Assembly (NCBI GenBank): GCA_963924555.1
Contig: OZ004591.1
Coordinates: 4,030,001 to 4,094,000 of the forward strand
Direction of reading: 5' to 3'
Source of the DNA: Crambe crambe
Taxonomy: Eukaryota; Porifera; Demospongiae; Poecilosclerida; Crambeidae
DNA length: 64,000 nt
The stretch's first letter is position 1. Every line of letters starts with the position of its first letter. Shown here piece by piece: positions 10,701-54,219 of the stretch. The notes under the pieces were generated by a model. The model did no database searches. It saw nothing but the letters and a program-made list of their open reading frames with translations, and was not told the DNA's origin. Made by a program: the position numbers and the translations under genes.

Positions 10701-13700
10701 CTTTGGATGATCAAAACCATCACTGATAGCTATGTAGCACAAGTCTAAAGTTAGCTACTACAGCTAAGTATAATGAGTGGTGGCCAAAATAGCCACTGTT
10801 GACCAGTACCCTGTAAGAGGAATACAAAGGTCACATATTGGAGGGGTTTACTAGTATAGTAGCTATGGCTGGCTAATATGGCTGGCTGTAGCTATAGGGT
10901 GTAGTCTAAGAATTTGTGATCACACAGTGTGTGCAAAGCGGGGGCTCCAGAATTTTTAGGTCTCTTAAATGGAATCTGGTGTATTATGAATGCAGGGAGT
11001 GTATGAATGACATGTATTAAATCATGCCTATAATCAGAGAGAGTGGTAGCTCTCTCTATGTAGGGATGACGCGGACGGCTGCGCGCGCCGCCTATAGACT
11101 AATACAAAAGTGAAATTCTAGTTCCCCCACTTAGACTCAATAAAAGCTACTGTGAATGATTATCCAGCCTACTACAAAGTGCAGACCAAGTTTCAGGACC
11201 AGGGAGCTTACCATTTCAGAAATAGTAAATTGCTGGATTCTTTTTCTTCTCTATTGTTATTATTCTTCTTAGACAACCATATCTCTCGAACCACTCAAGC
11301 TACAGCTATGATTTCTGGATAAATTCTACCAGCTACGATCTTTTACACTCATCAATCCTCGAAAGAGTCGATGTAAAAGGAGACACTCTGGAGCACAGTA
11401 CTTGACTAACTTAATTATTGGAAGCCATTTTTCTATAATATGCATGCACATGTATTTCATATCCAATTATTCAAAATTATAATATTACTCAGCTAGCTGT
11501 ATGTACATATGTACTCTCTGAACTCCAACTGATCACCATTACCGGTAGACAAGGCTGGGTAGACTCTTCTGCATCTTCGACCTCCAAGTATAAGAGCTCA
11601 ACTGATAAATAATCATTGGGTTGCTATGCTATTGCCTGCATACACATAGAAGAATGAACTCTATACATAAAAGAGAGGGAAAAAACCAGGAAAAAGTAAG
11701 GGAAAAAACATTTCCGTGCAATGAAAAAAAAAGTAGCTAGCTAGCTCTAGCTCGTAGACTACTCTTTGTCCATCAACTCAGGGATTTTAGATTCACATAT
11801 CCATCTACCGGTAGCAGATTCATCTGCATCCTCGACCTCCTCAACACTTCAAGCCTTGACTCGCTGATAAATAATCATTGGGCTGCTATGCTATTGGAGA
11901 ACTATACATCTCAAGAAACTTCTGTCCTTGCATACGCATAGAAGAATGAACTTTTGCATTATGCATACATACATAACACCATAAATACAGAAGAAAAAAA
12001 AGACCATGAACAAGTAAGGAAAAAAACATTTCTGTGAAATGAAAAAATGTAGGGATGACCATTGCTCGAAAAAGTAAGGAAACAAGGGTAGGGATGAAGG
12101 ATGCAAATAGGATCAATCTTTGTTCTGCATATCCAGCCAACAATCCCTACATAGCTATACGTACATTTAATACTGTGAAGCTACCCGATGTATATGTAGG
12201 GATTGTTGGCTGGATATGCAGAACAAAGATTGATCCTATTTGCACAAGTGAATGCAAAAAATTTCTTCGAAATAAAAATGTGAAGTAGGGATGCTATTAT
12301 AACTGCAGCTTCATTATGAAAACCAAGTACTGCAGCATCGAAGCAGTATGGCCCAAAAATCTAGCTGGTATATGTATTATAACTGCATGCAAGAGAGTGA
12401 ACTTAGTGAAGTGACCCTTACCCATCATCAAGTACAAGATACTATTCCTACTTCACTCCCTTGGCATGGGAGTGAAGTAGGAATAGTATCTTGTACTTGA
12501 TGATGGGTAAGGGTCACTTCACTAAGTTCACTCTCTTGCATGCAGTTATAATACATATTCCAGCTAGATTTTTGGGCCATACTGCTTCGATGCTGCAGTA
12601 CTTGGTTTTCATAATGAAGCTGCAGTTATAATAGCATCCCTACTTCACATTTTTATTTCGAAGAAATTTTTTGCATTCACTTGTTTGCATTCTTTTTCTT
12701 TGTGATTATGAAAATTGATAGACACTAAAGGCTTCCTTGATTGAACTAAATTTACTTAATGATCAGTTTGAAGGATGATCATCTGCAGTGTAATGGAGTA
12801 CTGAAAGGAGTGAACATTTTAAAAAGTGAACAGCATTAGCTAATTGTTACATATGTGATCACTGAAATAATTATTGAGATGGTACGTATGTCTTGCTTGA
12901 GGGAGGAGTATGGGGAGTTTATGCATTTGGTGTAGTGATCATAATAGTGGATGCCATCAAATGGCCACATCCTGTGCAGGTGTTATATGAGGAGAACTGT
13001 TATTAATTGCCCCACCCCTTTTATGAGGTAATATCGCGAAGATTTTTTTCATACGAGGCTGCAGCACATTATAGATAGCCCAGCTAGATTTTAGGCTATC
13101 CCTACTTAACCTTTTTATTTGAAGAAATTTTTTACGCTCACTTGTTTCTATCCTTTTTCTTAGTGCTTGAAGTTGAATGAGGGAGGCTACAGTACAGTAC
13201 TATACAAAGCCAGCTCTACATAAACCTCTTTTGTAGGTACATACAGTGTCTCTGGTTGAAGAATTTGTTTAGCTATTTAAGTTTTGTTGATATAAAACTT
13301 TACAGCAACAGCAATGTAAATGACATGTACACGGCATGGTGAAGTGAGCTGACTACACTACAGCCAAGTACTGGCTATAATGCTACTATAGGATGAGCAT
13401 CTGTACTGTAATTCAGCAAGGAGTGACTGGAACATCATCAGATAATGAATGAAGACCTTGGCTATAGCTAAACTTAAGCTTACGTGGCTCCGCCCATAAG
13501 CCCCGCCCCCTTCAAAATGGCGTAGAAAGATTAGCAGCTGTGTTCCGAGTGCTATCGAATAGTGAAGTAGAGCCTTAGTCAAAACTAATAGCAAAAGATC
13601 AGCCTCTAGGTGCCGCTCTAACAGATGGCCAAAGCAGAATTTTGATGACTATAGCCAGTAAGTCGGTACGTCGATCTTATACATTATTATCAGAGAGTGC

Positions 13701-16700
13701 GGTAGCACTCTCTAAGTAGGGATGGCAGGTCAAAGTCCATAGGACAGTATAAACTAAAAACTCTTCTTTCTCTTCTACCCTTACTCTACAGGTTCTCAGA
13801 AGGCTACAGTGAATTATTATATCTACAAAGAAGAGAGGAGAATGTTCAAAAGCCAAAAATTCATTCGCCAACATAAGAAAAAAACGAGTTCTAAAATTGA
13901 CTTTTCGTTCTTTTTCTTTATCAGAGAGTGCGGTAGCACTCTCTAAGTAGGGATGGCAGGTCAAAGTCCATAGGACAGTATAAACTAAAAACTCTTCTTT
14001 CTCTTCTACCCTTACTCTACAGGTTCTCAGAAGGCTACAGTGAATTATTATATCTACAAAGAAGAGAGGAGAATGTTCAAAAGCCAAAAATTCATTCGCC
14101 AACATAAGAAAAAAACGAGTTCTAAAATTGACTTTTCGTTCTTTTTCTTTATAATAATAATAATAATGTATAAGATCGACGTACCGACTTACTGGCTATA
14201 GTCATCAAAATTCTGCTTTGGCCATCTGTTAGAGCGGCACCTAGAGGCTGATCTTTTGCTATTAGTTTTGACTAAGGCTCTACTTCACTATTCGATAGCA
14301 CTCGGAACACAGCTGCTAATCTTTCTACGCCATTTTGAAGGGGGCGGGGCTTATGGGCGGAGCCACGTAAGCTTAAGTTTAGCTATAGCCAAGGTCTTCA
14401 TTCATTATCTGATGATGTTCCAGTCACTCCTTGCTGAATTACAGTACAGATGCTCATCCTATAGTAGCATTATAGCCAGTACTGTAGTAGTGTAGTCAGC
14501 TCACTTCACCATGCCGTGTACATGTCATTTACATTGCTGTTGCTGTAAAGTTTTATATCAACAAAACTTAAATAGCTAAACAAATTCTTCAACCAGAGAC
14601 ACTGTATGTACCTACAAAAGAGGTTTATGTAGAGCTGGCTTTGTATAGTACTGTACTGTAGCCTCCCTCATTCAACTTCAAGCACTAAGAAAAAGGATAG
14701 AAACAAGTGAGCGTAAAAAATTTCTTCGAAATAAAAATGTGAAGTAGGGATGCTATTATAACTGCAGCTTCATTATGAAAATCAAGTACTGCAGCATCGA
14801 AGCAGTATGGCCCAAAAATCTAGCTGGAATATGTATTATAACTGCATGCAAGAGAGTGAATTTAGTGAAGTGACCCTTACCCATCATCAAGTACAAGATA
14901 CTATTCCTACTTCACTCCCATGATCAAGGGCCAAGGGAGTGAAGTAGGAATAGTATCTCGTACTTGATGATGGGTAAGGGTCACTTCACTAAATTCACTC
15001 TCTTGCATGCAGTTATAATACATATTCCAGCTAGATTTTTGGGCCATACTGCTTCGATGCTGCAGTACTTGATTTTCATAATGAAGCTGCAGTTATAATA
15101 GCATCCCTACTTCACATTTTTATTTCGAAGAAATTTTTTACGCTCATTATTATTACAAGTGAGCGCAAAAAATTTCTTCTAAATAAAAAGTTAAGTAGGG
15201 ATAGCCATAAAATATAGCTGCATTATTACTATTCCTATCACTCTCAGCCCTCCTAATTTCAGTAACCACACCTATATCCAACTTAAATCCCTACTTCACT
15301 CCCCCTTCAGCAACAACAAGTGAGTCAAGTAACCATCCATCACCAAACTCAAGAACCACAGCAATATTATCAAAATACTATTCCTACTTCACTCCTATTA
15401 GGCGTCCTAGGAGTGAAGTAGGAATAGTATTTTGGTAATATTGCTGTGGTTCTTGAGTTTGGTGATGGATGGTTACTTGACTCACTTGTTGCTGAAGGGG
15501 GAGTAAAGTAGGGATTTAAGTTGGATATAGGTGTGGTTACTGAAATTAGGAGGGCTGAGAGTGATAGGAATAGTAATAATGCAGCTATATTTTATGGCTA
15601 TCCCTACTTAACTTTTTATTTAGAAGAAATTTTTTGCGCTCACTTGTTTCCATTCTTTTTCTTTGTAATTAGATAGCTATAGCTAGAGTATAACATAACC
15701 GATTTATTATCTTCCTCTTGTAGGTACATAGTGCTCGTGATCCACAATTGAAGAAATTTGTGTATTATTCAATATCAAACTTAACAGCAATAGCAATGTG
15801 TGCATGGCCAAGCCTACCATACTGATTCCGAAGTATTTTTACTCAAGGAATTTAACTTATAGCTACATTTCATATTACAAAATAGCTTAAATTCATGACA
15901 TTTTATATGAAATCAAAGTTGACATGTTGGAGGTGCACACACTGGCATGATGAAGTGAGCAGACTACATACAGCCATGTAGGATGAGCATGTATACTGAG
16001 GAATGGCTGGAACACCATCTGACCAGGATAGATAGTTAGCTAAACTTGAAGAACTAGCTTAGCTATGGGAGCCTGAGATCAAAATTCACACTGACAGGTT
16101 GGAGGCACTGGCATGGTGAAGTGACAGAGCTAAGTACTGACTATGTGTAGGATGAGAATCTGTACTGAGGAATGACTGAAACACCATCTGACCAGAAGAA
16201 ATAGCTAGCTAAAATCTCAAAGTTGAACAGCTCTAGCTAGCGCGCACCTACGCGGCCCCGCCCCTTAAAATGGCGAAGAAAGATTAGCTAGTGTTGGATA
16301 TCACTGAATTGTGAAATAGAACTGTAGTGAAAACTAATAGCAAAAGATCAGCCTCTAGGTGCCGCTCTATCTGATCGCCATGTTATAATTGTGACAACTA
16401 TAGCCAGTTAGTCAGTACGCCGATCTGATTATTATTATGTTGAAAAACTAGAACAAAAGTCAATTTTTGAAATCGTTTTTTGTTAATGTTATAGAATGAA
16501 TTTTAGATTATTATACATTGTCCTGTCTTCTGTGTAGATGTAGGGATAGGGCCATGACTTGTGAGAACCTGTAGAGTAAGGGTAGAAGAGAAAGAAGAGT
16601 TTTTAGTTTATAGAGTCTTAATGACCTTTGACCTGCCATCCCTACTTAGAGAGTGCTACCGCACTCTCTGATAAAGAAAAAGAACGAAAAGTCAATTTTA

Positions 16701-20400: not shown

Positions 20401-23400
20401 ACATTACTACACTATAATCTGAAGCTACCCGACGTATATGTAGGGATTGTTGGCTGGATATGCAGAATAAAGATTGATCCCATTTCCATCCTTCTTGTTT
20501 CCTTACTTTTTTGAGCAGTGGTCATCCCTACATCTTTTTTCATTTCACGAAATGCTTTTTCCCTTACTTGTTCCTGGTCTTTTTTCCTCTCTTTTATGGT
20601 TTTAGTTATGTATAGAGTTCATTCTTCTATGTGTATGCAGGGACAGATGAAAGAAGAATAGTTCTCCAATACTTCTCCAGCATACCAGCCCAATCATTAT
20701 CAACGAGTCAAGGTGTTGTGTTATTGTTGAGCTATACTTGGAGGTCGAAGATGCTGAAATAGAGTCTACCGTGGTGAATCTAAATCCCCGAGTCGATACA
20801 GTAGTCTATCATCAATGATCATTATCTAGCTAGCTAGAGACAGCTGAGTAATATTACTAGGGTATGTTCGTGTAACATATTCAATCGGCGAGCGAAGCAG
20901 TTGGTGAAAGTCATTTGTACTTTGACTTACTAAGATATTGCAGCTGCATACATAGGAGGCTGTATAATGCTTATCACAAGCACTTAGAAAGCCAAGCACC
21001 TACAATCCACTTAGCGCCTCTATGACAAAATGCTGTAGAAAGCAATAAGCTCTAGCTAGCTGTTTGTTTTAAGTGCTTGCTATGGGCATGTTTCATTTGT
21101 GGAGTCACATACGTGTGTATATATATTTATTCTTACAGACCACGCCCACTAGTACATTTCCCCCATAGACGAGCCGTTGAATAAATCCCCATATTCAACG
21201 GTTATATTCAACGGTATACTACGCATGCGCAGACTAGCCTAGTAACCTTTTTGGCCGACATTTCTGAAGATGATAGGCAAGCTTAATTGAATCTTACAGC
21301 GGTTTGTCGAAGTGCATTAGTTGTTTTTAGGGTCCGGTAGGCTGCTAGGTTTATCTAAAGTGCTTCGTGGTGAGTATTACAGGTTCTCATAATAGCTTCC
21401 TACGGACGATGTATGTTTTGGCTATAAACACTCCTTAGACTTGTTAGTTGTGACATATGTTGTGCACTGTAAGAATAAATCACTTATTACACTCGTCAGC
21501 TGTGAGATATGGCGAGATATTTCACTCGCCATCTCACGCTGACTCGTGTAATAAGTCATTATATATAGCTATTTATTCTTACAGACCACGCCCACTAGTA
21601 CATTTCCCCCCCATAGACCAGCCGTTGAATAAATCCTCATATTCAACGGTTATATTCAACGGTCTACTGCGCATGTGCAGACTAGCCTAGTAACCTTTTT
21701 GGCCGACATTTCTGAAGATGATAGGCAAGCTTAATTGAATCTTACAGCGAAGTGCATTAGTTATTTGTAGGGTCCGGTAGGCTGCTAGGCTTATCTAAAG
21801 TGCTTCGTGGTGAGTATTACAGGTTCTCATAACAGATCTAGTTAAGCTATCCCTACTTAACCTTTTTATTTAGAAGAAATTTTTTGCACTCACTTGTTTC
21901 TATCCTTTTTTCTTAGTGCTTGAAGTTGAATGTAAGTTTGTGTATGTAAAAAATTGAGTGACAGTATTGACTGTCACTTCAACTGAGAGTATGCAGTGAT
22001 TATTAATTTGACATGAGTCTACAGTACAGCCAGCTCTACATAAACCTTATCTTTTTCTTTTGTAGGTACATACACAGTTTCTGGTTGAAGAATTTGTTTA
22101 GCTATTTAAGTTTTGTCTATTATTTACTTTACAGCAACAGCAATGTAAACAGCAATGTAGCTAAATGACATGTGCATGGCATGCTGACTACATTACAGCC
22201 AAGTACTGGCTATAATACTACTATAAGATGAGCATCTGTACTGTAATTCAGCAAGGAGTGACTGGAACATCATCAGATAAGAATAAATAGCTAGCTAAAC
22301 GATTAAACTGATCTAGCTAGCTAAACTTAAGAAGCTTACGTGGCTCCGCCCATAACCCTTGCCCCCTACCGACGTGCGCTTCAAAATGGCGTTGAAAGAT
22401 TAGCTAGTGTTCCGAGTGCTCGAATAGTGAAGTAGAGCCTTAGTCAAAACTAATAGCAAAAGATCAGCCTCTAGGTGCCGCTCTAACAGATGGCCAAAGC
22501 AGAATTTTGATGACTATAGCCAGTAAGTCGGTACGTCGATCTTATACATTATAATTATTATTATTATTATTAGCTATTATTACAAGTGAGCGCAAAAAAT
22601 TTCTTCTAAATAAAAAGTTAAGTAGGGATAGCCTAAAATCTAACTGGGCTGTATAATGTACTGCAGCCTCGTATGAAAACAATCCCTACATTTACATTCA
22701 CTGCCTTTAGCTAGCTATGGGCCGTTGTAAAAGTAGGATTGTTTTCATACGAGGCTGCAGTACATTATATAGCCCAGTTAGATTTTAGGCTATCCCTACT
22801 TAACTTTTTATTTAGAAGAAATTTTTTGCGCTCACTTGTTTCTATCCTTTTTTTAGTGCTTGAAGTTGAAAGTAAGTTTGTGTAAGTAAAGAATTGAGGG
22901 TGGCAGTATTGATCATCATTTGAAGTGAGAGTATGCAGTGATTATTTGACATGAGGCTACAGTACAGTACTATAGTCTATACAAAGCCAGCTCTACATAA
23001 ACCTATCTTTTTTCTTTTGTAGGCACATACACAGTCTCTGGAAGAATTTATTTAGCTATTTAAGTTTTGTCTATTATTTAATATAAAATTTTACAGCAAC
23101 AGCAATGTAAATGACATGTGCATGGCTGGTAAAGTGAGCTGACTACACTACAGCCAAGTACTACTATAGGATGAGCATTTGTACTGTGCAATGCAGCAAG
23201 GAGTGTCAGGAAGATCATCAGATAAGAATAAATAGCTAGCTAAACGATTAAACTGAAGACCTAGCTTAGCTAAACTTGCTGCTGAACTGATTAGGCTGCA
23301 CTGTTGCACTTATACGTGACCCCGCCCACACGCTCCGCCCCCTACCGACGTGCGCTTCAAAATGGCGTAGATTAGCCGAGTGATATTAGACACGGAACAG

Positions 23401-25450
23401 GATTGGAAACTGTCTACGTCATGTGACGTCACGCCCATTAAGCTAATACATTTCGCGCGCATGCTATCCGCGTTGTAACCATAGAAAATTTAGCCCTATT
23501 GTCGCAATACATTTTCTGAGGAAGAGAGGTACAGACTTTGTGGGACTAGAGCTACGAGTGCAAGTACTTTTCTAGCAATTTTATCCTATAGAAGTTTGGA
23601 AGGTAAAGTTTCTTACTGGAATAGACTGAAAAAAAGAGTGTAGTAATTGTTCTTGGTGTAGGATATGTTGCTAAAGATTTTATAGGCCTACCAATTTGTG
23701 GGACTAGAACAGGACTCACATAAATTTAGAAGTCAAGTGTTTGGTATCTTTTAGTAGTATAATAGTTTGTCTATCGGATGATACATATTATATTGATTTA
23801 TAGCTGTTAGTTTTTTTTGATTGCAGTGTTAAACTATGGGTTAAATAGTTATTATTATTACATTTCTATTATTTATTTGCATTATCATGTTTTATTATCC
23901 ACTCCATAAAGCTCTCTGCACAAGAATGGGCATCTATAGATGGCTGGAGAGGAAGACTAAACTCTTCATCTTTCAAAATCCTTGAGATACTGAATCTCTC
24001 ATAGATTTGTACTGTCTAGCTAGATCTAGTATCATATTAAGTTTTATTATTTTTATAGAAACACAACATAGAAACACTCTAGCCCAGCTAATATTAAGCT
24101 ACTAGACTAATATCTACTCTGATATCTTTTGCAGAACTCATCCTCAAGGCATCATTTTGGCAGAGCAATGGTGACTGAAATCCACCAATATTCGGAAATT
24201 GCATCTTCAAGATATGCTGAGCAAGGATGATATGTTCATCACAGATCCATTTCCCACCCAGCACTATATTTTTCATCTTCTTTGGATCTTTCTCTACAAT
24301 AATATATTATGGATTGGTAGCTATTATAGTTGACTATTGATTTTGAAGCAAACTGTAGCAGATAATCTGTTTTGAGGGGAAGTTGACGAGGATAATTACT
24401 AGGTACCTCCTTATTCTGCACAATCTTAGTATGTAGCACAATGGTCCATTACAATTAATATCCTGACCTTTTGGGAACCAGTTTTGAGGGGAGATTGACG
24501 AGGCGAATTGCCAGGCATGAATTATCAATAGACATGGAAGGGAATCATTTCATCCTCAGCATGAATGACTCCCTAAATGGAAGGGGAGTCATTTCATCCT
24601 AGGCATGAATGGCTGCCTGAAAAAAACTATAGCCATAGAAGGAAGTCATTTCATCCTAGGCATAAATGGCTCCCCGAAAAATCAATAGCCATGGAAGGGA
24701 ATCATTTCATCCTCGGCATGAATGATTCCCTAAATTGAAGGGGAGTCATTTCATCCTAGGCATGAATGACACCCTGAAAAATCTATAGCCATGGAAGGGA
24801 ATCATTTCATCCTCGGCATGAATGACTCCCTAAATTGAAGGGGAGTCATTTCATCCTAGGCATGAATGACTCCCTGAAAAATCTATAGCCATGGAAGAGA
24901 ATCATTTCATCCCAGGCATGAATGACACCCTGAAAAATCTATAGCCATGGAAGGGAATCATTTCATCCTCGGCATGAATGATTTCATCCTATGCATGAAT
25001 GACTCCCTAAAAAATCTATAGCCATGGAAGAGAATCATTCCATCCTAGGCATGAATGACTACCAGAATATGTATGCATTAAAGTTCAAAGGAAGATGCAT
25101 CATATATAGTGCTTACACAAAGGACAGTTATAATAAAATATGCACAGTTTTGGTGAAACCAGTTCAAGCAATCTTCACATTCCACCATATCTCTGGCATC
25201 ATGCAGGCAGTCACAATATGCAGAATCTGACAGGAGCAGTAAATCCATGACACCATTTTTGTTGCTAGCCAGTTATATAGCTATACATAAAATTGTCCCA
25301 CAGGTTCATCATCATCATCTTCAGCATCAACTTCTTCCTGAGATAAATTAGCTACGTACGTAGCTACATGATTTATTGTGATCAGGCGCCAAGGCAGGAC
25401 AGGAATGACCGTGTGGGGAGTCATTTTCACCAGGGGGGAGTCATTTTCCG

Positions 25451-36626: not shown

Positions 36627-37730
36627 CATAGATATAAGAGGTTTTACGGGATTGGAAACGCCCAATGAACTGCACAACCGTGGCGCGTTGACAGATGCGC
36701 ACGCGCATGCAGCATTAATTATATTAATCGTTGTGAAAAGAGATCAATATTCACTCCTTTCAAGGCAGTTAAAGTGATATTCTGCCCCTACAGCTCACAG
36801 AATAGTACAAGTAAGCTAAGGGGAAGGTATTGAAGAAGTGAAGAGTCAGAGAGTTGAAGTTGGAGAGTCTGAGGAAGGAAGTTATTAATTATTCATAACT
36901 TTTTTCCTTGTAATTATAACTATGAGTACCTATCATTGCTCATTATACATTAATTTTATGTGATTGATTTGAAAGAAAGGCCAGAATGACTTTTGGTATT
37001 AAAATTAGACATAAATTCATTATTATTATAGCTAGATAATTTTGCCCCAAAGTTATCCGCCAGTTTCTGCTCAGTTCTCCCTCATCAACATTATTGCAAT
37101 ACTTCCAGCTTTTGGCTGTTGGGTTTTGACACCATCCACCTCAAGAATTCGGCTCAGTCAGCTGTCCTGTGGACCCTATGGATATTAGGGGGGAAATATA
37201 GTAAGCTTGCCATCTCCATAGGATGACTATTGTATAGAAAACGAATGCACCAATTCCATTTACTGTTCTATCCTTTCCCTGTACAGTTTCAATATTGTTA
37301 ATCTATTTCTTGGGAGAGGGATTACAGTTTTAACACCACTTGCAAATGCTAGAGACAATATTTGTCAGCTAATACAAAAACCAACATTACTATTCCATGT
37401 AGCTAAAGTTTACATGCCATTTGATCAGAAAATGGGCAACAGCAATTGATTCCATCAAGCGTGAGAGGGATTACAGTCCCATTAACCACTACAGTAGTAT
37501 TTGTAGGAATAAACTTGAAAATCTGAGCTGAAATTTATTTCATACAGTAAATCTATGCCCTAGTGTATTATAGTATCATTGGCATAAGTCTTACCTCACG
37601 GATCTTGTCAGAACAGCAACTTTGACAAAAGTGCTATGTCATTCAGCTGTCAACGCGCCTCGGTTGTTAGTTGCTAACGAGAGCACGTGATCCGTTTCCA
37701 ATCCCGTAAACTTCTTACGGTATATCTATG
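36627..37730. mobile_element. 1.1-kb nonautonomous P-type element, TSD GTTGAAT
   Basis: The ends CATAGATATAAGAGG and ATATCTATG are inverted, each followed inward by the family block ACGGGATTGGAAACG or its reverse. The 7-bp duplication GTTGAAT is at 36620–36626 and 37731–37737; the empty site in the 21.1-kb repeat has it once. A near-identical copy is at 51736–52845. No coding sequence. Confidence 0.95.
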
Positions 37731-40483: not shown

Positions 40484-41539
40484 TTTCCATATTAACACCC
40501 CTGGACATGATGTGGCAATCACACAAGGGATTAACCATAAAGAGTGTTTTATATTCCAGCTACATGTAGGAGTGTAATCCTCATATCAACAATTGCTAAA
40601 GTCATATTTTTGCAAAACATCAAGTGGGCATGGTTTGCAAATTCAAAAGGGGTGTGGTTAGGCAAAAGTAGGCGTGGCCAAGGCAAAAATTTCCCCACAG
40701 ATATCTTCCCCCCTATTGAAAAATCCGAGATAGAACCCTGAACACATTGCTGTCATGAACATTACTAATGGTTGCCATGGCAATGAATATAGTCACATGA
40801 CCATTTTAAGTACCTAACCTATGCAGTAGGTGTTTTGGACATGTATAGGAGAACCAGGTATAGGGTATAGGAGAAATTGTAATTTGCTGTTCTTGGCAGG
40901 TAACCACTTTTATGCTGCAACAAAATCTTCTAAGTGGCGGTTGGTGTCCTGTCGCCTACTACCACACCTACTGCAAGCTAGTTGATTCTAGCTACCAGGA
41001 CCAGACCTCTTTAAGAGTGACTTAGCAAGTGAGAAGTGGTTCAGAGGGTCAGAAGCATTCCATTTATAAGACTGGCTTCCTTACCATGTAGTAAAGGATA
41101 GCCTATACTTTTAAGTCTATAATACATCACCATGACTTCATTAGTCTGGCGTCGCTAGCCCAGCTTTTCTTCTTTTTTTTTTGGGACGGGGAAGAAAAGT
41201 GGTCTGGTAGCTCTAGCATCAACTACTTGTGTCGCCCGCGCGCGCAGCTAGCTATAGCTGCGTCCCAATCAGATTGCTCTATTCAGTCACGTGAAGTAGT
41301 ATTAATGTTGGCGAGACACACCCACGATTTATTCCAGGTTGGCAGAGCTAGAGCTAGAGCTATGGATAAGTAACCAAGAGCTGTGTTTAAAGAGCTAGAA
41401 ATACCTGGCCTGAACGGCTGGAAGTTGTATCAGCGATTTTCAAGGGCGATGTGTTCGCAATTCTACCATAGATATACTAGACTACGTACACAGGATTGGA
41501 AACAGGGCATGCGCGCGTAGAATTTATAGACCATCCGTG

Positions 41540-44319
41540 CATAGATACTATAACCTCCGGACACGGGATTGGAAACGGGTGGTTCACGCGAGATTTTGGG
41601 ATACAATCCGCGTTGTTTGCTGAGTCAGCAAAGACGTTGCCAAACAGTAGCTGAGGCAAGTATTTCGATAATGCATGGGTGTAGCCAGGGGTGGTTCGGG
41701 TGGTTCGGTCGAACCACCTTTTCAAAATGAATAAAAAATGTTTTAAGCGCGATCGCGCGCTATGCGCGTACGCGCGTTCGTGAGTGATCGATCGATCGTG
41801 AGCTCGAAGCGAGCAGAGAGAAACGAGTGAGGCAAAGCCTCTTATTATTTTTGTCCAGAAAAGGTCAATTTTACGTATAACTCAGCCCTACTGAGCAGTT
41901 AGTGGCTTAGTGCCTGAGACTATGAATAAATCTTGCTGTAAAAACTGTACAAAAAACTGTACAGGTAGCTAGCAGATCGTGTACCATCTTCATCATTTAC
42001 TCATCTTCATACTTTCCCTGCCTTCATATGCTGCATTGCAGCTGCTAAGTCATTGTTTTTTTATAAATCGGTTATCAAAAAGGGTGTGGTTATAGGAAAA
42101 TGGGCGTGGTCATGCCAAAAAATTTTCCGCGCTTATGCGCGGATAACTTTAGAACCCCCTCTTCAAAAACTCTGGCTACGGGCCTGTAATGGCTGAAGCT
42201 ATAGGAGAAATACAAGTAAGCAAAGATTGTAACCTTAAATCCAGCTATTATAGCTATGTAATTCACTTTTTAGGCCCCTCTCAATGAGTCTGAGATACAT
42301 TCAGGCAGTAAAAGAAGATAATGGGTTTAAACTTCCTTCATCAAACGCTTCTGCATCTCTGCAAGCTGCAAGAGAGTTATATGCATGGTGCCTGGACTGC
42401 AGGAATGAATGTTAGCTTTCAAATTTTGCTTTAATCCATAGCAAACTTGAAACAGCTCTGACTATTTAAAGTCAGCTGTAAACAAAGGTGGGGGTTTACC
42501 ATTATAGCATTTATTCTTTATTCATCGGATGAATTCATCTTAATGTGGAAGAAATTCTTGGTGTCATCATCAAAATATGGTGGATTTCCCATCTTCCAGA
42601 ATATCATCTGATAGATTTTTTAGGTGAACATGAGGGGGGATCTACTGTTACAGCAGCATGTCCATTTTGATACATTTATAGAACTGTGAAGGACAGAGTC
42701 CATGGTGAAAAAATATGTATGGAGTGGTTATTGAGTTTAGAGGAACTTTTGGATGAAGAGCTAGCTATAGAAGAAGCAGCAGTCCAATCTTCAGCAACTG
42801 GATCCTCAATGTGAACAGAAGTGGCTTGTATTTTGTATTAGATCTATATAGATGATGCATTTGACATTTTTATTGATTAAAAAATGAGGTATACTATTGT
42901 ACGAGCAATTAAGGCTAGAGAAATATCATGTGGAAAAAAGATGAAATCATGGAAGAAGTAATGAGAGATGAATGAATTGGTCTATATATGGATATGAATG
43001 TCGAAATTGGGAAGGAGTTGCTGAAAATGATCATTGAAGGGTGGATCAAGATGAGTGAATTCTCATTTGGAGGTGCGTGGTTGAAACTTTAAGCAGAGGT
43101 TGAAAAAGTCCCTCCAATGTTCTAAAGGACTGCGCAAAGTCAAGCACTATGGGTGATTAATACATTTTGCAGAGGTCCAGTTAGAGGCAATTGCAGGGCT
43201 CACAGTTCCAAGCCTGATTTGGAAAAAGAAAATGCAAAGCAGAGAATGATTTCCAAACATGAATGAATCATTATAATAGGGAAAAAAAGCATGCTGCATG
43301 AATTCTTGATTATTGGTGTGTTGTTGATAAATTCCTCAACACTGGGATTATCATGAGTTCCACCTCTTTGTCGCTGGCACCCAAAAAACTTTTCAGAAGG
43401 TGCTCACTCAATTTTTTTTTCACTCCATCAATGGAAAACAGAATATTCCATAAATGATAATACTATAAATTAGCAAGCTAACAAGAAGCTCTAGCTACCT
43501 GTCATTTTCAAACCCAGCAAGGTCTCAGGGCTAAGGAGCATTTTCTTTTTCTCAACTTTGGAAAACCCTTTCCTTGCTTTTATGCTCCATCCAAATAGAC
43601 AAGAAACTCTTCTTTTACCCACTATATATAAATGTAATGATAAAAATCGTCACAGGTAGGAGTATCCATGCATTCAGTTCAGAATTGACCAAATTGGGTT
43701 TTTAAAGTTTATGGTTATAGCATAATTATGATGTGTAACTTAAGGCCTACACTAAAAGTCAGCTACTCTAACTATGCACATGCAAAACTACTTTTATTTT
43801 GCTACAACATCAACTAGTTATTTTTCATAGTAAACTTCTCCCAGACTGGTAAATTGAGCACACAATTACACACATTAATGGCCTCCCGAACTTACAAAAC
43901 CCAGATTTTTTTCCAGTAATATTCAAGTCTTAGAAAAAAAAGCATTCTATAACAAACTTTATCTCTATGTATACCATTTGGTGGAAAATTTAATGCAAAA
44001 TAGCTTAATTCAACACAGAAAACCTTTCACACAGTTTTCTTCTCCAGGAATTGACCAACCACGGCAAAAACTAGCCATATCAATGAACTAGGGTTTAAAA
44101 TTTTATTTTAAGTATCAAAATGAGTAGTATAAAGTATTAGACAAAACTGTTTTCTTACTGGCTCGCTCTATTCATCCGTTTCAGAGATATGTCTTTATTC
44201 TCTTTTTATGTGCGGTCAACAAAAATTACAACGCGGAGTGCACGCAAGCAATTCAATGGTTGTCATAGGCGCACGTGAGCCCGTTTCCAATCCCGTGTCC
44301 GGAGGTTATAGTATCTATG
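41540..44319. mobile_element. 2.8-kb P-type element, TSD ATCCGTG
   Basis: The ends CATAGATACTATAACCTCC and its reverse, with GGATTGGAAACGGG inside, are flanked by ATCCGTG (41533–41539 and 44320–44326). It contains the MITE at 41674–42186. The interior (42.19–44.2 kb) has no open frame that I recognise. Confidence 0.93.
41674..42186. mobile_element. 513-bp MITE with 5-bp TSD (TAATG)
   Basis: Inverted copy of the 6291–6757 element, flanked by TAATG (41669–41673 and 42187–42191). It is the innermost of four nested insertions. Confidence 0.9.
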
Positions 44320-46020
44320 ATCCGTGTAGGTACCTGGCGAACAGAGAAATCTTACACAAAATAAGAAAGAGGGTGAAAGGCAAGGTATTTAGCGCAGCAA
44401 TAATTATGATTATAAGTGAAAAGGCTCAATGACCTAGAGCTGTAGTAGTTTATCATGTCAGTTTAGTCTATTTACTGTTGCTATGGAAGAAAAACGTGGA
44501 AACAGGTGACTGAAAGGTTTTGTGGCACTCCTACTACTAAAATAGAAGTCTAGCTGCCTTACTTTTGGTATAAAATGAAAGATACTAGTTGACCATATGT
44601 ACTCAAGTAGTTTTAATTTTGTGCAGGGCTGGAGATGGCATGCCATTTGCCATTGATGGTTTAAGAAGCCATTTCACTATGTTGTTGTTCTTATATGAGG
44701 AGACGAGATACCTTCTTGTATCAGGGGCAGGAAAGGATACACTGGGGCAGCTTTACTCTTCATCTTGATCCCTCGAAACAAGTATATCACAACAAATCTC
44801 TCGATGAATTGGATGTTCAGCAGTGCACTATCAGTACTTGTTATTATCATTTTTTTATTATAACATGAAAGTAAATATGTGTAAAGTGACAGTATTAGTT
44901 GCTACATTATAGTATCCTTCTTTACTATAGCTTTTCTTGACAGCCAACCATGGGTAATCTGAAGAAACAGTAACATCGACATGATTTTTTTTTACAGGCA
45001 CCTTTAAAAAGTACATATGTACATATAAATGATCACTACCTAACAGATTAGTGGGGAAAAAGAGACTATACTTTTAACATCCAAGCTCCTGAGGTCCACA
45101 AAGTCGAACTACCATTGTTACTCGCAATTATACCCTCTAACACTTGAGAAACCAGCCTTTTTAAGAACTATGCTTGTTTAGCACTATACTAGCCCACTCT
45201 TTGCATTCTTTCAACTTACCAATTGGCTATAGTTTAGCAGAAATTTGGCACACTACTTCTCCTCCCCTGTTTGTTTGGGGCAATTTAGCACGAACAGCTG
45301 CCTACACGTACGGATTGTCAGTATTGTCGTTATGGGCGCACGTGACCTGTTTCCAATCCTGTGTACGTAGCTAGTCTAGTATATCTATGATTCTACCTTA
45401 GATAATTAGACTACGTACACAGGATTGGAAACAGCTCACGTGCGTCCATTATGCTAATACAAATCGTCGCGGACGATCCGTGTTGCTATGCGCGAAGGAA
45501 AATTGGAAATTTATTCCTTGTTTCTCGAGTATACTTTTCATGAAAGGAGAATAAACTGGTGAGTTTTAGCATCGAATAAAGGGCTACTTTACAGAGTATG
45601 TTCCAGGGATGTGAAATGTGTTTCTTAAGTATAGTTAGTTTGCTCATGAAACAGTTTTCCATGGAGATTTTTATCACCCTAGCAACGGATAAAGCTTTTT
45701 CCTTCTTTCATTGCAAAGGCATAATTCCTGTGTCCTTTTAATGAAGTTTATGTTGTTGAGTGATGCTTGCCATACGGAATGGTGCGCATAACATAAATTT
45801 TTGTCCTGAATCTTTGATGCTTTCTGGCTTTTTCTGCGTTTGGAGGTGTATATTTCACACAAAAGGCACTGTTGCATGAGCAATGAAATTTTGCTAACTG
45901 ATAGAGTTAGTGCTGCAGTTTGGAATAGCATCAATCCCATAAGCTGCAGTGACCAAAATTATAGCTAATGTACATGCTAACTTATCCACATTAATTTATT
46001 ACTATACAATAGTTACAGCT

Positions 46021-48786
46021 ATGCCAAGGAGGAAAAAAAGCAAACTGTGTGTCAAAAAACATGGAAGTAAGAACATTCTCAAGGTGCCATCTATTCCTGT
46101 GCCAGTATCTTCAAGTCCTGCTTCTAGTATCAGTGATCTTTCAATCACCCTGGACAGACTTCCATCTAAATGGGTCAGATTGAAAGAGCCCAACCTCACC
46201 TTGGTAAAACTCTCAAAAAGCCCAAATTCCACAGCAGTTTGTTCACTCTTTAGTGTTACCATATGGTTCCTGGCTATTAGAGATGTAGAGGTTGATCATG
46301 TGAAAATTAAGGCCACTGCCAATGCACCGATACTTATGTCATCACCATTAGATGTGATACATCTTCTGACCCTACTGGATGATTGTAAATTTTGTCGAGG
46401 ACACCCAGACAAACAATTTATAAAATTAATAAATGATCGTAATGGGACCATATGTAATCCCTCAGGTAGGTTACAGTTTCTTCATTAGCTGCATGAACAT
46501 TAATTTCATCAAAACTAATAGGTACATCCATAACAGCATACCAAGATCAAAAGTTGCCTCCCTACATGCCAACTATCAGACACAGGTCCTGTGAGCTCAT
46601 TTTACCAGGAAGCTTGCATGGCAAAACTTGCACTGCCTGTGAACACTACAGGAAAGTTCTCCGGGCATTAGATAGCCGGGCTAAAAAAAATTCTCATCAA
46701 CAACTCGATCCTAGCAGTCACATCAACTATCGCTACTTAAAAGGTCCTGCCAAAAACAAAAGGATGAAAGAACTGTATAAAAGAAATAGAGCCACCAAGA
46801 AATGCATTGCCAGATTGAAGAAGAAGATTGACAGAATAACAAGAGAATCAGGAGTAGATTTGGACCAGCATATGACAGGGGATATCATAAGCATTGTCCA
46901 AGAGCATCATGATCAAGTTATATCAAAACATCCCTGTGGATCATTTCTTCATATCTTTTGGAATCAGCAGCTTCAGGCTGCAAAAAGGAATCGAAATGGT
47001 ATGCGTTGGCATCCACTAATGATACGGTGGTGCATCTACCTGCGTCACAAATCTTCTGGGGCATACAATCTCTTACGAGAATCTGGTGTTGTTGCACTCC
47101 CATCCCAAAGAACTCTCAGGGACTACACCTATTACATCAAAACTACCACAGGTTTTTCTGATGAGGTGGATGAAGAGCTAATGGAAGCTGCATGTGCGTA
47201 TGTGTATAGCCGATAATAGGTGCACATAATGATAAGCTAGCAAATTGTAATTACGTATAATCATTATTATAGCTGCATGTGCCCAAACTTCTGAGGATTG
47301 GCAAAAGTGTGTGGTGCTAATTCTGGATGAAATGCACATCAAAGAGGACTTGGTCTATGACAAACACACTGGTGAGCTGGTTGGTTTCACTAACCTTGGC
47401 AGCATCAACCAGCATCTTCAAGCATTTGAGAGATCCTTGGAGCAAAGCACCAGTTTGGAGCCACTTGCAAATTCCATGCTCGTGATGATGGTGAGGGGAA
47501 TCTTCACTAAACTGCAGTTCCCATATGCACAGTTTCCTTGTGCCAGTCTGACAGGAAACTCACTTTACTCACCATTCTGGGAAGCAGTTAGCCGCATTGA
47601 ACTTGTTGGCTTGAAGGTACACTGTAGCTATAATTACATATGACATTGCTCATTGCTAATAATATACAATAGGTACTTGTGTGCACGTTTGATGGAGCGA
47701 CAGTGAATCGTCGTTTCATTAAACTTCATGACATGGATCAAGTTGATATCATGTATAAAGTGAAAAATCCCTATGCTGCTGATAATAGGGATTTGTTCTT
47801 TATATCAGATCCTCCACACTTACTCAAAACCACAAGGAACTGTTGGTCATCAAATAAAAGAACCCTGTGGGTAAATGACCATGCTGCAGATTATTATTAG
47901 CTATAATTATATAATCTCTATGCAGAAAAATGGAAAATCCATATCTTGGACCCATTTGTACAACTTGTATGTAAGGGATCAAGGTGATGGAGTGTGTACT
48001 AGAATGCTTCCCAAGTTGAAGTACAAACATCTACATCTTACTTCCTTCTCAAAAATGCGAGTAGACTTGGCAGCACAAGTAATAATTAAATAATTATAGT
48101 TGTATCTATAATTACTGTGTGATGAATAATGATAGGTTCTCAGTGATTCTGTCTCAAAAGCTCTTCTTTTGACTGGGGGAGCAGAGGCATCTGAAACTGC
48201 AAAATTCGTGGGCATGATGGACAAATTTTTTGATAGCCTCAATGTAGCCAACTATACAGCAGGAATGTATGCCCGTAAAGCTTTTCAGTCACCTTATCGA
48301 AGTTCAAAGGACTTTCGATTAAAAGTAAGAATAATTATACAAGTTGTAGCTACATATTGATTTAGTGCAATATTGCACTATAGTGGCTACAAAATGAATT
48401 TCTTGTCTATTTGGATGAATGGGAACAAAGTGTCAAGGCAAGAAATGGTTTCAAAAAAGGCCAGAAAAAAAAGATGCTCCTTAGTGCAGAAACTTTGCTT
48501 GGCCTCCGTATTACAGGTATAGCACCCATACATGTAGTCACATTGTACATTATAGCTTGAGCAAATACTTACAGCAGTTATTAATTATATATCTTTAACA
48601 GTTAAATCTTTCATTGAATTTGTACCCTACCTCTTCTCTCTCCATGGAGTGAAGTCGTTCCTTAGTCAGCGACTTTGCCAAGACCCTTTGGAACGTTTTT
48701 TTGGCTGCCAGCGTCAGCGAGGAGGAACACATGAAAATCCAAATGTGAAGAGTTTTGCAAGAACACGCAAGCCCTCAGAGTTGTGA
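46021..48786 (+). CDS. P-element-type transposase, eight exons
   Basis: Exons: 46021–46465, 46522–47193, 47273–47616, 47673–47870, 47926–48078, 48136–48324, 48384–48516, 48602–48786, all phase-compatible. P-type transposases cut and paste elements with a split RNase H-like core and a GTP-binding insert. Seen: a Cys-containing N-terminal region (CKFCRGH; GKTCTACEHY), a coiled basic stretch, WHPLMIRWCIYLRHKS, LPSQRTLRDY, the first catalytic Asp in LILDEMHIKED, a second in CTFDGATVNRR, SDPPHLLKT, and the C-terminal QDPLERFFGCQRQRGGTHEN. No THAP finger was found upstream. The start is the Met before PRRKKSKLC; an in-frame Met lies at 45949. A one-base change near 48745 shifts the frame, so the tail open to 48923 in another frame is lost. 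The catalytic core looks intact. Confidence 0.9.
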
Positions 48787-48980
48787 ATTCTTTCTGTAGA
48801 CCACCTACAAATGGAAACTGTAGAAAGAGACCCCAAGAAACTGAAGAGAGTGGGAGTGAAAACATGCAACTGAAAAAACGCCGAAAATTGCAGAGGAAAA
48901 AATTATCCTCAGTCTCAAAGTGACATTCATTCAGAAGCTTTATATTATAATAGCTACGTACATAATTATTCATGATAATT

Positions 48981-49982
48981 TTATTGAGGGTCTTTTGTAG
49001 CCTTAGTAGCACACAACTTCTTCCTTATGCCCTTGGTTTTCTGCGTTGATTTCTTACTTGCCATTTTATACTTTTCCACCCATGAGCTAGCAAAGGCAAA
49101 GCCTCGTATGGTGATCCAAAGGTCCACTATCATTTCAAATAGCACTTTGCTCTCCTCTTCATCCCAATCCTCAGAAATCTCAGACCATCTACATCTGATT
49201 TCACTATTTTTGTACATTCCTTCTTTAATACTTTTCTTGATGTTATCAATGGGGTTTATCAAATGATTTTGAACTTCTTTCTCCATCTCTACCATGAAAC
49301 TATACATGGAGTTTGAAATGTGGACTAATCCTCCCCTGTCAACCAAGTCTATCCAATCCTCTGATTCTTCATCATCATCATAGTCATTTTCTAACAAATC
49401 ATCGATACAACATATTAATTCTTCTTTTAAAGGGTGAGATGAATGTTTTAATCTCTTATGCAGAGCCCTTGGGATGTATCCTGCTGCATACCGCAATGCA
49501 TTACTCTCTTTGTAAGTAATTACACGCTCATGATCATGCTGGGAGGTGGAGCTGAGGTCACTTGAAATAGGGCAGTTATTAAGAATTACTCGTTCAAATA
49601 ACACATCTGTAATTTTCTGGTACAGGAGGGGTGAAGGGTCCATTGCTATACCAGCTTGACCAAAAAAATCTTTCCAGATTTTCCGAAACTCTGTGGTGGT
49701 TCTAATTTTATGGTACTGCCCCCACATAATTCGTTGTATTTTCTCTAAGGGACGAGGGTCAATACAACATTCAAGTAATTTTATTAGGTGTGCTTCAAAG
49801 CAATTCAACATTTCATAGCTTGAAGGATTTGTGCACCACTCAAGAGCTGCTGTAGCAACTTCTCGAGCAGCAATATTGTGTGGACGAGAGAGCATCTTAG
49901 TCTTCACAATTTGTTGCAAAACTTGGACAATAATTCCACTAGGATCTATAGTTAAAGCAATTAAGCTCAATGAAGTGGTCAT
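48981..49982 (-). CDS. accessory protein of the P-type element, 333 aa
   Basis: This single uninterrupted frame is convergent to the transposase, about 195 bases from its stop, and inside the same terminal repeats. The sequence includes YKESNALRYAAGYIPRALH (about residues 158–176), an acidic stretch NDYDDDEESEDW (about 199–210) and a basic C-terminus (KYKMASKKSTQKTKGIRKKL). The N-terminus MTTSLSLIALTIDPSG has no clear signal peptide. I do not recognise a domain with certainty; the AAGY-R-L phrase is reminiscent of C-terminal parts of some transposases. Its intact length next to a nearly intact transposase suggests selection, either for transposition or as a regulator. The function is unknown. 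Confidence 0.8.
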   Translation of the reverse strand: MTTSLSLIALTIDPSGIIVQVLQQIVKTKMLSRPHNIAAREVATAALEWCTNPSSYEMLNCFEAHLIKLLECCIDPRPLEKIQRIMWGQYHKIRTTTEFRKIWKDFFGQAGIAMDPSPLLYQKITDVLFERVILNNCPISSDLSSTSQHDHERVITYKESNALRYAAGYIPRALHKRLKHSSHPLKEELICCIDDLLENDYDDDEESEDWIDLVDRGGLVHISNSMYSFMVEMEKEVQNHLINPIDNIKKSIKEGMYKNSEIRCRWSEISEDWDEEESKVLFEMIVDLWITIRGFAFASSWVEKYKMASKKSTQKTKGIRKKLCATKATKDPQ

Positions 49983-50435
49983 ATAAGCTTCAGTATAGTT
50001 AATAGCTAGCTAGCTAGGTCGCTAGCACTGTAAATTAGCAGCTTTTATTGGCCAGCTAGCTGATAGAGCTAACTAGATCATAGCTAGGTCTCTTAGCACT
50101 GGCTAGCCAATAACAACACAATTTTTACCTTGTAAATTAGTTCCTCCTTCAGTTGAGAGAGGATTTTCCCCAGCCATACAAGCAATAACAAGCCACACAC
50201 TTAGAGAAACAAACCACTGTAAACAGCTGCAATAATTTGGCGCAACGCGCATGGTCCGCGCGCAAATAATTGTTTCCAATCCTGTGTACGTAGTCTAATT
50301 ATCTAAGATTCTACCAAATGGCTTCGGAAAATTATTCAACACGCATGTGTATAGCAATTTAAATTAATTTTGAGAGATCGCGCGGGCATCACAAGTAGTT
50401 GATGCTAGAGCTACCAGACCACTTTTCTTCCCCGT

Positions 50436-50455: not shown

Positions 50456-51281
50456 AAAAAAAAGAAGAAAAGCTGGGCTGGCAACGCCAGACTATGACTT
50501 CATTAGGTCACCTGGTCGTCCGAAGCTGGAAGTGTCTATTGAATATGGCAAACCATTCGTTTCAAAAATGTACTGGCCGAGAAGGGTCACCCGGTACCCG
50601 CGACCGCTTCGCAAATATTCACTGCCGCCCCGCGGTATCCATAATACCGCCAGCGCACTCTCTGATATCGCGAATCTCAATTTACATCACTAGTGTGTGG
50701 CTCGCTCGCCTAATAAACTTTGGACTCTGCTCTTCCTACATACAGTATAAAGTCCCTGTTAGCTATCTCTACTAACTGACCAGTGGCTCCATTTATATTG
50801 CAGGAATCATATTCTTTTTGGGAGCAGCTTGACTACAGGACAATGAGGTAAGGATAACTAGTCCTGTTGCTGTTGGGATTTGTAGCTATAGGCCTAGCTA
50901 GCAATACCCCTCTTTCCACCTGATAGTTGCCTACCTTTCGTTTCCTTTATATTCATGTATCTGAAAAAAGGGATTTTTCCATTATTAGAAAGCTTTTCTC
51001 TTGATGCCCCTCTCGGAATCATGCCTGAATTCTCTTCAAGTACAACTACTCTGATTGATTTTGGCCTTCCTTTAAATGCCTTTTTTTCCCGCTGATGTTC
51101 AGCATTAACTGTAGCCTCGTTCCCAGGCTCTCAGTGAAACGGGAAATGTGGGGGCGGAAAGGAGAGCCTGGTTTCTACTGCACGCACGGGCGTGTAAATT
51201 TTGACCACATAATTATAATTATTCATAACACGATTGATGATGTAATTATTAAGTAAACGTCACAATTAGTACAAACGCGCG

Positions 51282-51527
51282 ATGGATGCATGTCGCTTGT
51301 GTGAGCAGAGTGCAGCTATTGCCTTGTTTAGCAGTTCTGGATTATCATAGAAGTAGGATCAACAAACTCCTGGATGTCCCTGAGCTAGCTCCAGATGACC
51401 CCTTCCCATCACACGTCTGTCAAGCTTGCAAGAGGAGAATAGTTTCCTTGGAGAAGGCAACTGCAAACATTACTAGCTTCAAAGAGCTGGCCAGATCTTC
51501 TTTGCGGAGATCCCTTGAGAGCAGGGG
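51282..51527 (+). pseudogene. ZAD-like C2–C2 zinc-finger fragment
   Basis: From ATG at 51282 the frame reads MDACRLCEQSAAIALFSSSG. After a frameshift near 51347 the similarity continues as INKLLDVPELAPDDPFPSHV and CQACKRRIVSLEKA. The CxxC…CxxC spacing resembles N-terminal ZAD-type zinc-binding domains of DNA-binding proteins. The fragment runs into the antiparallel helicase piece and has no downstream fingers. Confidence 0.6.
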
Positions 51528-51716
51528 CACGAACACGAACATATCCTTGCCATCAAATACAGCTCGGATAGCCAGCTTCTGCTCTTCCTTCAGCAACAGT
51601 TCGGGTAAACCAAGCATTGACAGGGCATGAGAAAGCGCTTGCGGATAGTGGGAACTTGAATCGCTTGAAGAAACGCTAGAAGAAACACTCTCAGAAACGA
51701 ACTCGCCATCTTGCAC
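51528..51716 (-). pseudogene. RecQ-like helicase N-terminal fragment
   Basis: The minus-strand frame reads a Ser-rich start and then MLGLPELLLKEEQKLAIRAV and FDGKDMFVFVP, the segment that in RecQ-type helicases lies just before the P-loop. It stops there; beyond about 51528 the DNA belongs to the ZAD-like fragment. A fused or truncated capture is likely. Confidence 0.6.
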
Positions 51717-51735
51717 AAAAAAACGCTGATTAGAC

Positions 51736-52845
51736 CATAGATATAAGAGGTTTTACGGGATTGGAAACGCCCAATGAACTGCACAACCGTGGCGCGTTGA
51801 CAGATGCGCACGCGCATGCAGCATTAATTATATTAATCGTTGTGAAAAGAGATCAATATTCACTCCTTTCGAGGCAGTTAAAGTGATATTCTGCCCCTAC
51901 AGCTCACAGAATAGTACAAGTAAGCTAAGGGGAAGGTATTGAAGAAGTGAAGAGTCAGAGAGTTGAAGTTGGAGAGTCTGGAGGAAGGAAGTTATTAATT
52001 ATTCATAACTTTTTTCCTTGTAATTATAACTATGAGTACCTATCATTGCTCATTATACATTAATTTTATGTGATTGATTTGAAAGAAAGGCCAGAATGAC
52101 TTTTGGTATTAAAATTAGACATAAATTCATCATTATTATAGCTAGATAATTTTGTCCTAAAGTTATCCGCCAGTTTCTGCTCAGTTCTCCCTCATCAACA
52201 TTATTGCAATACTTCCAGCTTTTGGCTGTTGGGTTTTGACACCATCCACCTCAAGAATTCGGCTCAGTCAGCTGTCCTGTGGACCCTATGGATATTAGGG
52301 GGGAAATATAGTAAGCTTGCCATCTCCATAGGATGACTATTGTATAGAAAATGAATGCACCAATTCCATTTACTGTTCTATCCTTTCCCTGAAATAACTA
52401 ATACAGTTTCAATATTGTTAATCTATTTCTTGGGAGAGGGATTACAGTTTTAACACCACTTGCAAATGCTAGAGACAATATATGTCAGCTAATACAAAAA
52501 CCAACATTACTATTCCATGTAGCTAACGTTTACATGCCTTTTGATCAGAAAATGGGCAACAGCAATTGATTCCATCAAGCGTGAGAGGGATTACAGTCCC
52601 ATTAACCACTACAGTAGTATTTGTAGGAATAAACTCGAAAATCTGAGCTGAAATTTATTTCATACAGTAAATCTATGCCCTAGTGTATTATAGTATCATT
52701 GGCATAAGTCTTACCTCACGGATCTTGTCAGAACAGCAACTTTGACAAAAGTGCTATGTCATTCAGCTGTCAACGCGCCTCGGTTGTTAGTTGCTAACGA
52801 GATCACGTGATCCGTTTCCAATCCCGTAAACATCTTATATCTATG
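51736..52845. mobile_element. 1.1-kb nonautonomous P-type element, TSD ATTAGAC
   Basis: A near-identical copy of 36627–37730 in the same orientation (a handful of substitutions and small indels). It is flanked by ATTAGAC at 51729–51735 and 52846–52852. Confidence 0.95.
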
Positions 52846-54219
52846 ATTAGACAAAAATTATAATTATGATGAAATCAAAAACGGGAAAGTACGGAGGGAA
52901 TCCAAATCCCCCGGAATGTGAGGGATCCGGTCTGCAGTAGAAACCAGGCTCTCCTTTCCGCCCCCACATTTCCCGTTTCACTGAGAGCCTGGGAACGAGG
53001 CTACATTAACTGATGCACCTAAAGGATCAAACTTTTGCTTCTTGGTGGCAGGAAAAAGATTTGCTAGTGCTCGTGCATTTGCTTCAGTTGGTTAAACGTT
53101 TAGCTTACATAAAGCACACAAATGAACTATCAGCTAAACATTTCTACAGCCTTTTGGGCAGTATGCACAAGGCTTATCTAAACACTAGGTGCTTTGAAGT
53201 AAGCAGTACAGTTTTCTATGTATGCAGCTGCCTGCCACTTGCATATAAAACTCACATCAAAATCTTCTAAGGAGTTGAAAGCACAAATGAATAGTTATCA
53301 ACACAAAAGCCTATAGGAATACTTGCTCACTCGCTCGCTGTGATTCAAATGTTGTACATTGCCCTAGTTAATTAGAATCTATGTGCAGATGCATCACCCG
53401 GTTGGGTTCAGACACCTTCGTGGTGAAATAATTGAAAACCTTGCGGCATATCCGGTGCATGTAGTTCTGTGATGCAGTTCCCATAACTACTGTCGCGCAC
53501 CCGGTCTGTCCACCATGTGGACATAATGACTTCAGAATCTAGTGACTGTAGTGCTAGTGACTATGAAGAACCAAGTGAACCTCCTACCATTCATGTTAGT
53601 GGTGGGCAGACTTTCCCTCCCAAAGTGTCTGGAATACTGGAGACGTTGTATCAAAGGGGGATGACTGGATGGGGGGAAAAACACAGTGCTGAGGTCAAAT
53701 TTGCAATGACCAGTACTGGACTTAAATTGTCACAAATTAAGGTAAGAGTGTAGACCAGAAATAAAGTGAACTCACCTGTACTGTGGACTGTGCATCAGTT
53801 ATGCTTTCTATATAATTATAATTTTAAAGAACTGGATAAGACGTAAAAACAGAAAGAGAAGAGCAGCTGAAGATGTTACAGATGCTGGCCCGTTACCCAA
53901 GAAGAAGCAGCTAACACAATGGCAACAATTTTAAAAAAGATATGCTGAGACCAGAGGTATGGTAGCTATTGCATATCCATACCAGCATTGACCTGTTTTG
54001 TGCATTTATGTTTTTAGAGAGGGAAAAGTAGCACTATTAAAGGGTAATCCCTTTTTCAACAAAGAAGCAAGCAAGAAGTATGGGGAGTTAAATGAGGAGG
54101 AAAGGATGTGTGACCTTCAATGTGCTGCTACCTCTACAATGACCAGAAAGGAGGTTGGGTGAAGAGTATCAAGAATATTTAAACATATCCAAACAGAGGT
54201 ATGAAGATAATCTCCTCTA

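Follow-up and report, generated by a model that had tools for sequence, protein, structure and literature searches.

The singed-weak allele carries a double P-element insertion at one 8-bp target; our literature search for double P-element insertions at one target found nothing usable in print. Within the P superfamily, the Drosophila P element and zebrafish Pdre2 generate 8-bp duplications (PMC7776569, PMC10983969), and Galileo of Drosophila generates 7-bp duplications with the consensus GTANTAC, at an AT-rich palindromic target with a 15-bp motif (PMC4168063, PMC2775673). In D. willistoni, other elements were inserted at the termini in 14.7% of Galileo copies (28), in an account that does not state whether a duplication was held in common (PMC4168063). 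Of rice miniature inverted-repeat transposable elements, 11% exist in multimers, as cited in PMC10664404, which also describes neighbouring M1 and M2 repeats of pithoviruses with a putative TA duplication in common. Here we describe two transposons, E1 and E2, that lie end to end between three copies of the heptamer ATTCTAC in a 64-kb stretch of the genome of the sponge Crambe crambe (contig OZ004591.1; the whole stretch is referred to as the window). The arrangement resembles the rice multimers and M1/M2 in that the elements abut, and M1/M2 in the common duplication, although their TA dinucleotide is far easier to re-use than the 7-bp target here. An initial annotation of the window had called exact end-to-end insertion rarely documented, which is overstated for transposons generally given the multimers and common TA duplication of PMC10664404. 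The locus is a genuine and well-formed example of P-superfamily elements joined end to end at a 7-bp target that insertion had regenerated, and events of this kind are already known.

E1 (41467..45389, minus strand) and E2 (45397..50307, plus strand; 4,911 bp) are exactly bounded by the three ATTCTAC copies, all read on the plus strand. The first (41460..41466) is the left target-site duplication of E1, the middle copy (45390..45396) is common to both elements as the right duplication of E1 and the left duplication of E2, and the third (50308..50314) is the right duplication of E2. The heptamer as such was not enriched within the window (9 matches compared to 10.4 expected), and the weight of the observation lies in three copies standing at exact element boundaries rather than in heptamer frequency. 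The initial annotation had placed all three copies correctly and had reported two elements of 3.9 and 4.9 kb between them; both are indeed bounded by ATTCTAC, but the 3.9-kb interval is a composite, with a third copy of the family, E3 (2,780 bp; 41540..44319, minus strand), nested in an E1 that measures 1,136 bp by itself (3,923 - 2,780 - 7). E3 displayed 40/40 bp terminal inverted repeats between two copies of ATCCGTG (41533..41539 and 44320..44326, plus strand), and we infer that it inserted into E1 after E1 itself had arrived.

A motif-blind scan of the window recovered 7 pairs of inverted ends (any 9 bases, 80 to 8,000 bp apart) flanked by an exact 7-bp repeat; five of the pairs were E1, E2, E3 and two related copies, A (36627..37730, minus strand; duplication GTTGAAT) and D (51736..52845, minus strand; duplication ATTAGAC). 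The other two pairs (3599-5754 and 51111-53004) fell outside the family, and three letter-shuffled controls gave 0, 1 and 0 pairs. With flanking repeats of 5, 6, 8 and 9 bp the same scan gave 10, 52, 9 and 2 pairs, respectively, which were counted only. Although copies A and D as wholes are 98% identical, the right end of each is unlike both its own left end and the right end of the other copy; end identity is therefore an unreliable clock, and dating of the insertions by how well their terminal repeats match was set aside.

In the five window copies, each of the ten ends consists of C[A/T]TAGATA, a variable spacer and GGATTGGAAAC. One end of each copy, termed alpha, also carries TCACGTG starting 36-45 bp in, which is absent from the opposite, beta end. 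With starts at 31-45 bp here, TCACGTG is comparable in place with the transposase sites described for P-element ends at bp 53-63 and 41-51 (PMC3688188), and is a putative transposase binding site. E1 is inverted relative to E2, with its alpha end on the right, in the right terminal inverted repeat (45349..45389, minus strand), and that of E2 on the left, such that alpha faces alpha across the middle heptamer. The two facing ends match at 88% over 50 bp in inverted orientation, so that one transposase could move both elements. The two ends of E1 match apart from 4 extra bases (GCTA) in the right end, and the terminal inverted repeats of E2 match over 37/37 bp. Of the 16 family ends read, 8 had a further motif, TCCGYG, picked after inspection of the ends, compared to 0.02 expected per 140 nt; in 6 of these 8 the motif stood at 58-83 bp. 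It was absent from the right end of E2 and, among elements of a sponge-symbiont bin introduced below, from the left end of X1 and both ends of Y, with the end of Z cut short. The ATCCGTG target of E3 overlaps TCCGYG about 68 bp inside the left end of E1. A lone end of the GGATTGGAAAC type, with no recognised partner, was also seen at 23400-23410.

The duplication was 7 bp long at all five window elements and also at X1 and Y. Only the E1/E2 locus permits an 8-bp reading (ATTCTACC), E1, E2 and the right flank all starting with C. The two duplication copies of A, of D and of E3 disagree at the eighth base, and the duplication of the family is therefore 7 bp, one of the two lengths (7 or 8 bp) that characterize the P superfamily. 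In its 7-bp duplications and P-superfamily transposase the window family is like Galileo, as described in the sources above, and differs from the P element and Pdre2, for which 8 bp are given. In its short terminal repeats and P-type transposase it is like the P element and Pdre2; the long terminal inverted repeats described for Galileo (often long, e.g., 606/580 bp or 1.2 kb) contrast with the 37-40 bp matching ends here, E2 having 37 bp and E3 40 bp of perfect repeat.

The initial annotation had classed the elements as P-type, and this was borne out by the 7-bp duplications, as in Galileo, together with the coding content of E2. A P-type transposase region made up of several stop-free pieces spans 45943..48783 on the plus strand and contains matches to TNP-like_RNaseH_N (47251-47640, plus strand; Pfam E 2.8e-18) and TNP-like_RNaseH_C (48556-48783, plus strand; Pfam E 3.4e-8), both above the curated cut-off, and two pieces of TNP-like_GBD (47875-48090 and 48136-48357, plus strand; 5.6e-5 and 1.2e-4) just below it. 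E2, alone among the elements, is thus predicted to encode a P-type transposase with RNase H and GTP-binding insertion domains. An N-terminal THAP DNA-binding domain is usual, though not universal, in the P superfamily; none was matched in the nine pieces searched, where a missed or diverged domain is possible as the exons were unassembled. The transposase seems to switch frame near its C-terminal RNase H domain (~48735-48800, overlapping pieces in two frames), and this copy of E2 may therefore be inactive. No transposase match was found in E1 proper. Remnants in E3 resemble two of the E2 transposase exons (43329-43621, minus strand; best E 4e-10) and, by local comparison, a piece of X1 is like the last E2 exon (E 3e-6); E3 and X1 retain only pieces similar to the last exons of E2. 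The RNase H piece of the E2 transposase had no match in the symbiont bin (G001) nor in solved structures.

E2 contains a second, convergent open frame (48984..50009, minus strand; 342 codons stop to stop) that runs inward from the beta end and had no Pfam match. A homologue of this frame (E 7e-7) is located just inside a family-type end on a contig of the symbiont bin (C159; L016 4819-5179), and a weak match was found in E3 (42991-43138, plus strand; E 0.037). In all three the stretch points inward from its family end, and on this sequence comparison it may represent a conserved second gene of the family.

E1 and E2 are members of one P-superfamily family and very probably arrived by independent insertions, the later of which hit a duplication copy left by the earlier. 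The first element would have inserted at a single ATTCTAC, leaving one copy on each flank; transposase would later have made a 7-bp staggered cut, like the first, in one of these two copies and inserted the other element there, the outcome being heptamer-element-heptamer-element-heptamer. The site could have been favoured by a transposase preference for an RTWNWAY-like heptamer (akin to the Galileo GTANTAC), since insertion would preserve an intact preferred heptamer on either side of the new element, and the adjacent terminal repeat may have exerted an extra pull. The initial annotation had likewise proposed that one element hit the duplication made by the other, and this is supported; it took the right-hand element to be the later one, which need not be so.

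Two sequential insertions are the simplest account because a composite moved as a unit would show a new outer heptamer, and a mis-join would need a 7-bp overlap to be accepted. The initial annotation had offered target preference or composite movement as explanations, of which target preference is the better supported. In a composite movement the unit E1-ATTCTAC-E2 would have transposed via the left end of E1 and the right end of E2, which are similar enough to be paired by one transposase. This should leave the old heptamer inside and a new pair outside, whereas all three are ATTCTAC, a coincidence of 1 in 16,384 before any motif bias. As the outer duplication does not differ from the inner junction, a composite transposon moved as a unit was rejected as a candidate, and we regard such movement as extremely unlikely. 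Our reading rests on assembled sequence, and E1 and E2 could in principle occupy the same ATTCTAC on different haplotypes that were wrongly joined; however, only 7 bp would be common to the haplotypes at the false join, presumably too little for an assembler, and a similar junction was present in an independent assembly (see below), making an artefact of this kind very unlikely. Similarly improbable is that recombination or copying during gap repair placed E2 beside E1, for example by a template switch between element-bearing alleles at the same heptamer. According to PMC7776569, homologous recombination or end joining can mend the break that P excision leaves, but this route still requires two insertions at the same heptamer plus an exact exchange; it is the less simple account, and we saw no sign of it.

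A second end-to-end junction was detected in G001, a genome bin for a Cycloclasticus symbiont from a Poecilosclerida sponge. A scan of the genome_contigs collection for the end pattern gave 2 matching stretches, both from this bin, and the bin contained 9 exact core matches spread over five contigs; among 311 genomes of the symbiont's order scanned, the bin included, it was the only one with a match. The longest stop-to-stop frames of these contigs were 367, 125, 111, 163 and 139 codons in 16.6, 3.7, 3.2, 5.4 and 3.8 kb, respectively, and two of the five have short repeats in common with the window outside the elements. From the short frames and common repeats, the five contigs are best read as sponge-host DNA, and the public symbiont bin (LWTN01000203.1, our L002/L013, and others) seems to contain sponge-host contigs. 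For the window, the presence of this family likewise points to a sponge, and the window genes examined contained NACHT and RING domains, as would fit an animal. Element X1 (C203, LWTN01000203.1, 14129-15831) is flanked on both sides by exact ATACTAT, and a further element, X2, starts directly after the right copy, at 15839, giving X1-ATACTAT-X2. A complete element, Y (C128 2487-2943; duplication GTTACGG), had no abutting neighbour. The X2 end looks alpha-like in having CCATA at 51 bp, as in the left end of X1, but lacks TCACGTG. We discarded the idea that elements always join by ends of one type, as E1/E2 meet alpha to alpha but the beta end of X1 faces the alpha-like end of X2.

Searches with the bare junction pattern, allowing up to 3 mismatches, gave results near expectation in the window (1 place compared to 0.64) and in the symbiont bin (17 places compared to 11 in a backward control), where only the X1/X2 junction had fewer than 3 mismatches; only near-exact junctions therefore carry weight. 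In the viral_contigs collection the end pattern matched once, a lone end without family features, and the alpha-end pattern had no matches; the bare junction pattern matched 23 stretches, none of which had the GGATTGGAAAC core within 60 bp even when one mismatch was tolerated.

We compared six targets for which both flanks were read (GTTGAAT, ATTCTAC, ATCCGTG, ATTAGAC, ATACTAT and GTTACGG), counting X1 and Y and entering E1/E2 once; X2, Z (C133), C159:4610, C203:11041, C110:157 and the lone window end at 23400 were excluded for a missing flank or partner. The targets matched the Galileo consensus only in part, scoring 3, 4, 1, 3, 4 and 2 of 6, respectively; their mean of 2.83 was higher than the 1.60 of all window 7-mers (P = 0.005). 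All six have T at position 2 when read on the plus strand, a feature noticed post hoc. We then modelled five elements inserted sequentially in 64 kb and calculated the chance that at least one pair would lie exactly end to end, using arbitrary weights guessed from the six sites and for a window selected for holding a pair. This chance was 0.03% without a motif, 0.17% or 0.78% when only sites scoring at least 3 or at least 4, respectively, were used, and 0.05-0.28% under exponential weights. Across a whole genome, the model suggests that some end-to-end pairs would be expected by chance. The finding of a pair among at most seven elements of the second sample, picked for family ends and not for junctions, exceeds the model predictions, although the X1/X2 pair is a single case.

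Several points weigh against two insertions guided by a preferred heptamer. The four window targets alone reached only P = 0.029, none of the six fully matches GTANTAC, and the window target ATCCGTG fits the motif poorly (1 of 6). At the second junction the far end of X2 is off the contig, leaving the triple incomplete, and ATACTAT is nearly palindromic, with the direct-repeat reading depending on its middle base and the known end CATAGATA. The heptamers do not reveal whether E1 or E2 came first, and the motif alone does not comfortably account for two pairs in so small a sample.

The X1/X2 junction suggests, without proving, that the family prefers its own ends. In addition to two sequential insertions at a favoured heptamer, the family might, beyond the motif, favour the ends of its own members, for instance if transposase bound to a resident end captured an incoming complex; we consider this a tentative addition, possible though short of probable. 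Eight insertions (A, D, E1, E2, E3, X1, X2 and Y) have one flank or both read at a family end, and three of them lie on family ends: one member of each abutting pair, E1/E2 and X1/X2, plus E3 with its target over TCCGYG in E1. Pairs expected from the motif only stay below 1% per window. Against this, there are two junctions only, the first chosen by the reader of the sequence and the second from contigs chosen for family ends; the facing ends differ (alpha-alpha in E1/E2, beta against a probably alpha-like end in X1/X2) and give no orientation rule; the target weights were guessed from only six targets; and the bare junction pattern was not enriched in either the window or the symbiont bin. 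The broader proposal of a self-tropic sponge P-superfamily family that would favour its own duplications and subterminal sites for landing, with each insertion providing two fresh landing sites so that chains grow, recurring in two assemblies and apparently two sponges, appears doubtful.

Two separate insertions at one regenerated heptamer remain our preferred reading of E1 and E2, and the second case makes self-preference worth a genome-wide count, in which triple duplications distinguish independent insertions from co-moved pairs. If such pairs were common genome-wide, the family would lend itself naturally to testing whether P-type transposases are directed to their own ends, and also how clusters and long inverted repeats grow by repeated use of one target.

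Elsewhere in the window, copy D lies in an unrelated element (51097-53018) with 86-bp inverted ends that are 94% alike. In the interval 12244-15647 long inverted repeats are densely clustered: of the 25 longest among 159 pairs, seven lie here, measuring 162-324 nt with 96-100% complementarity.

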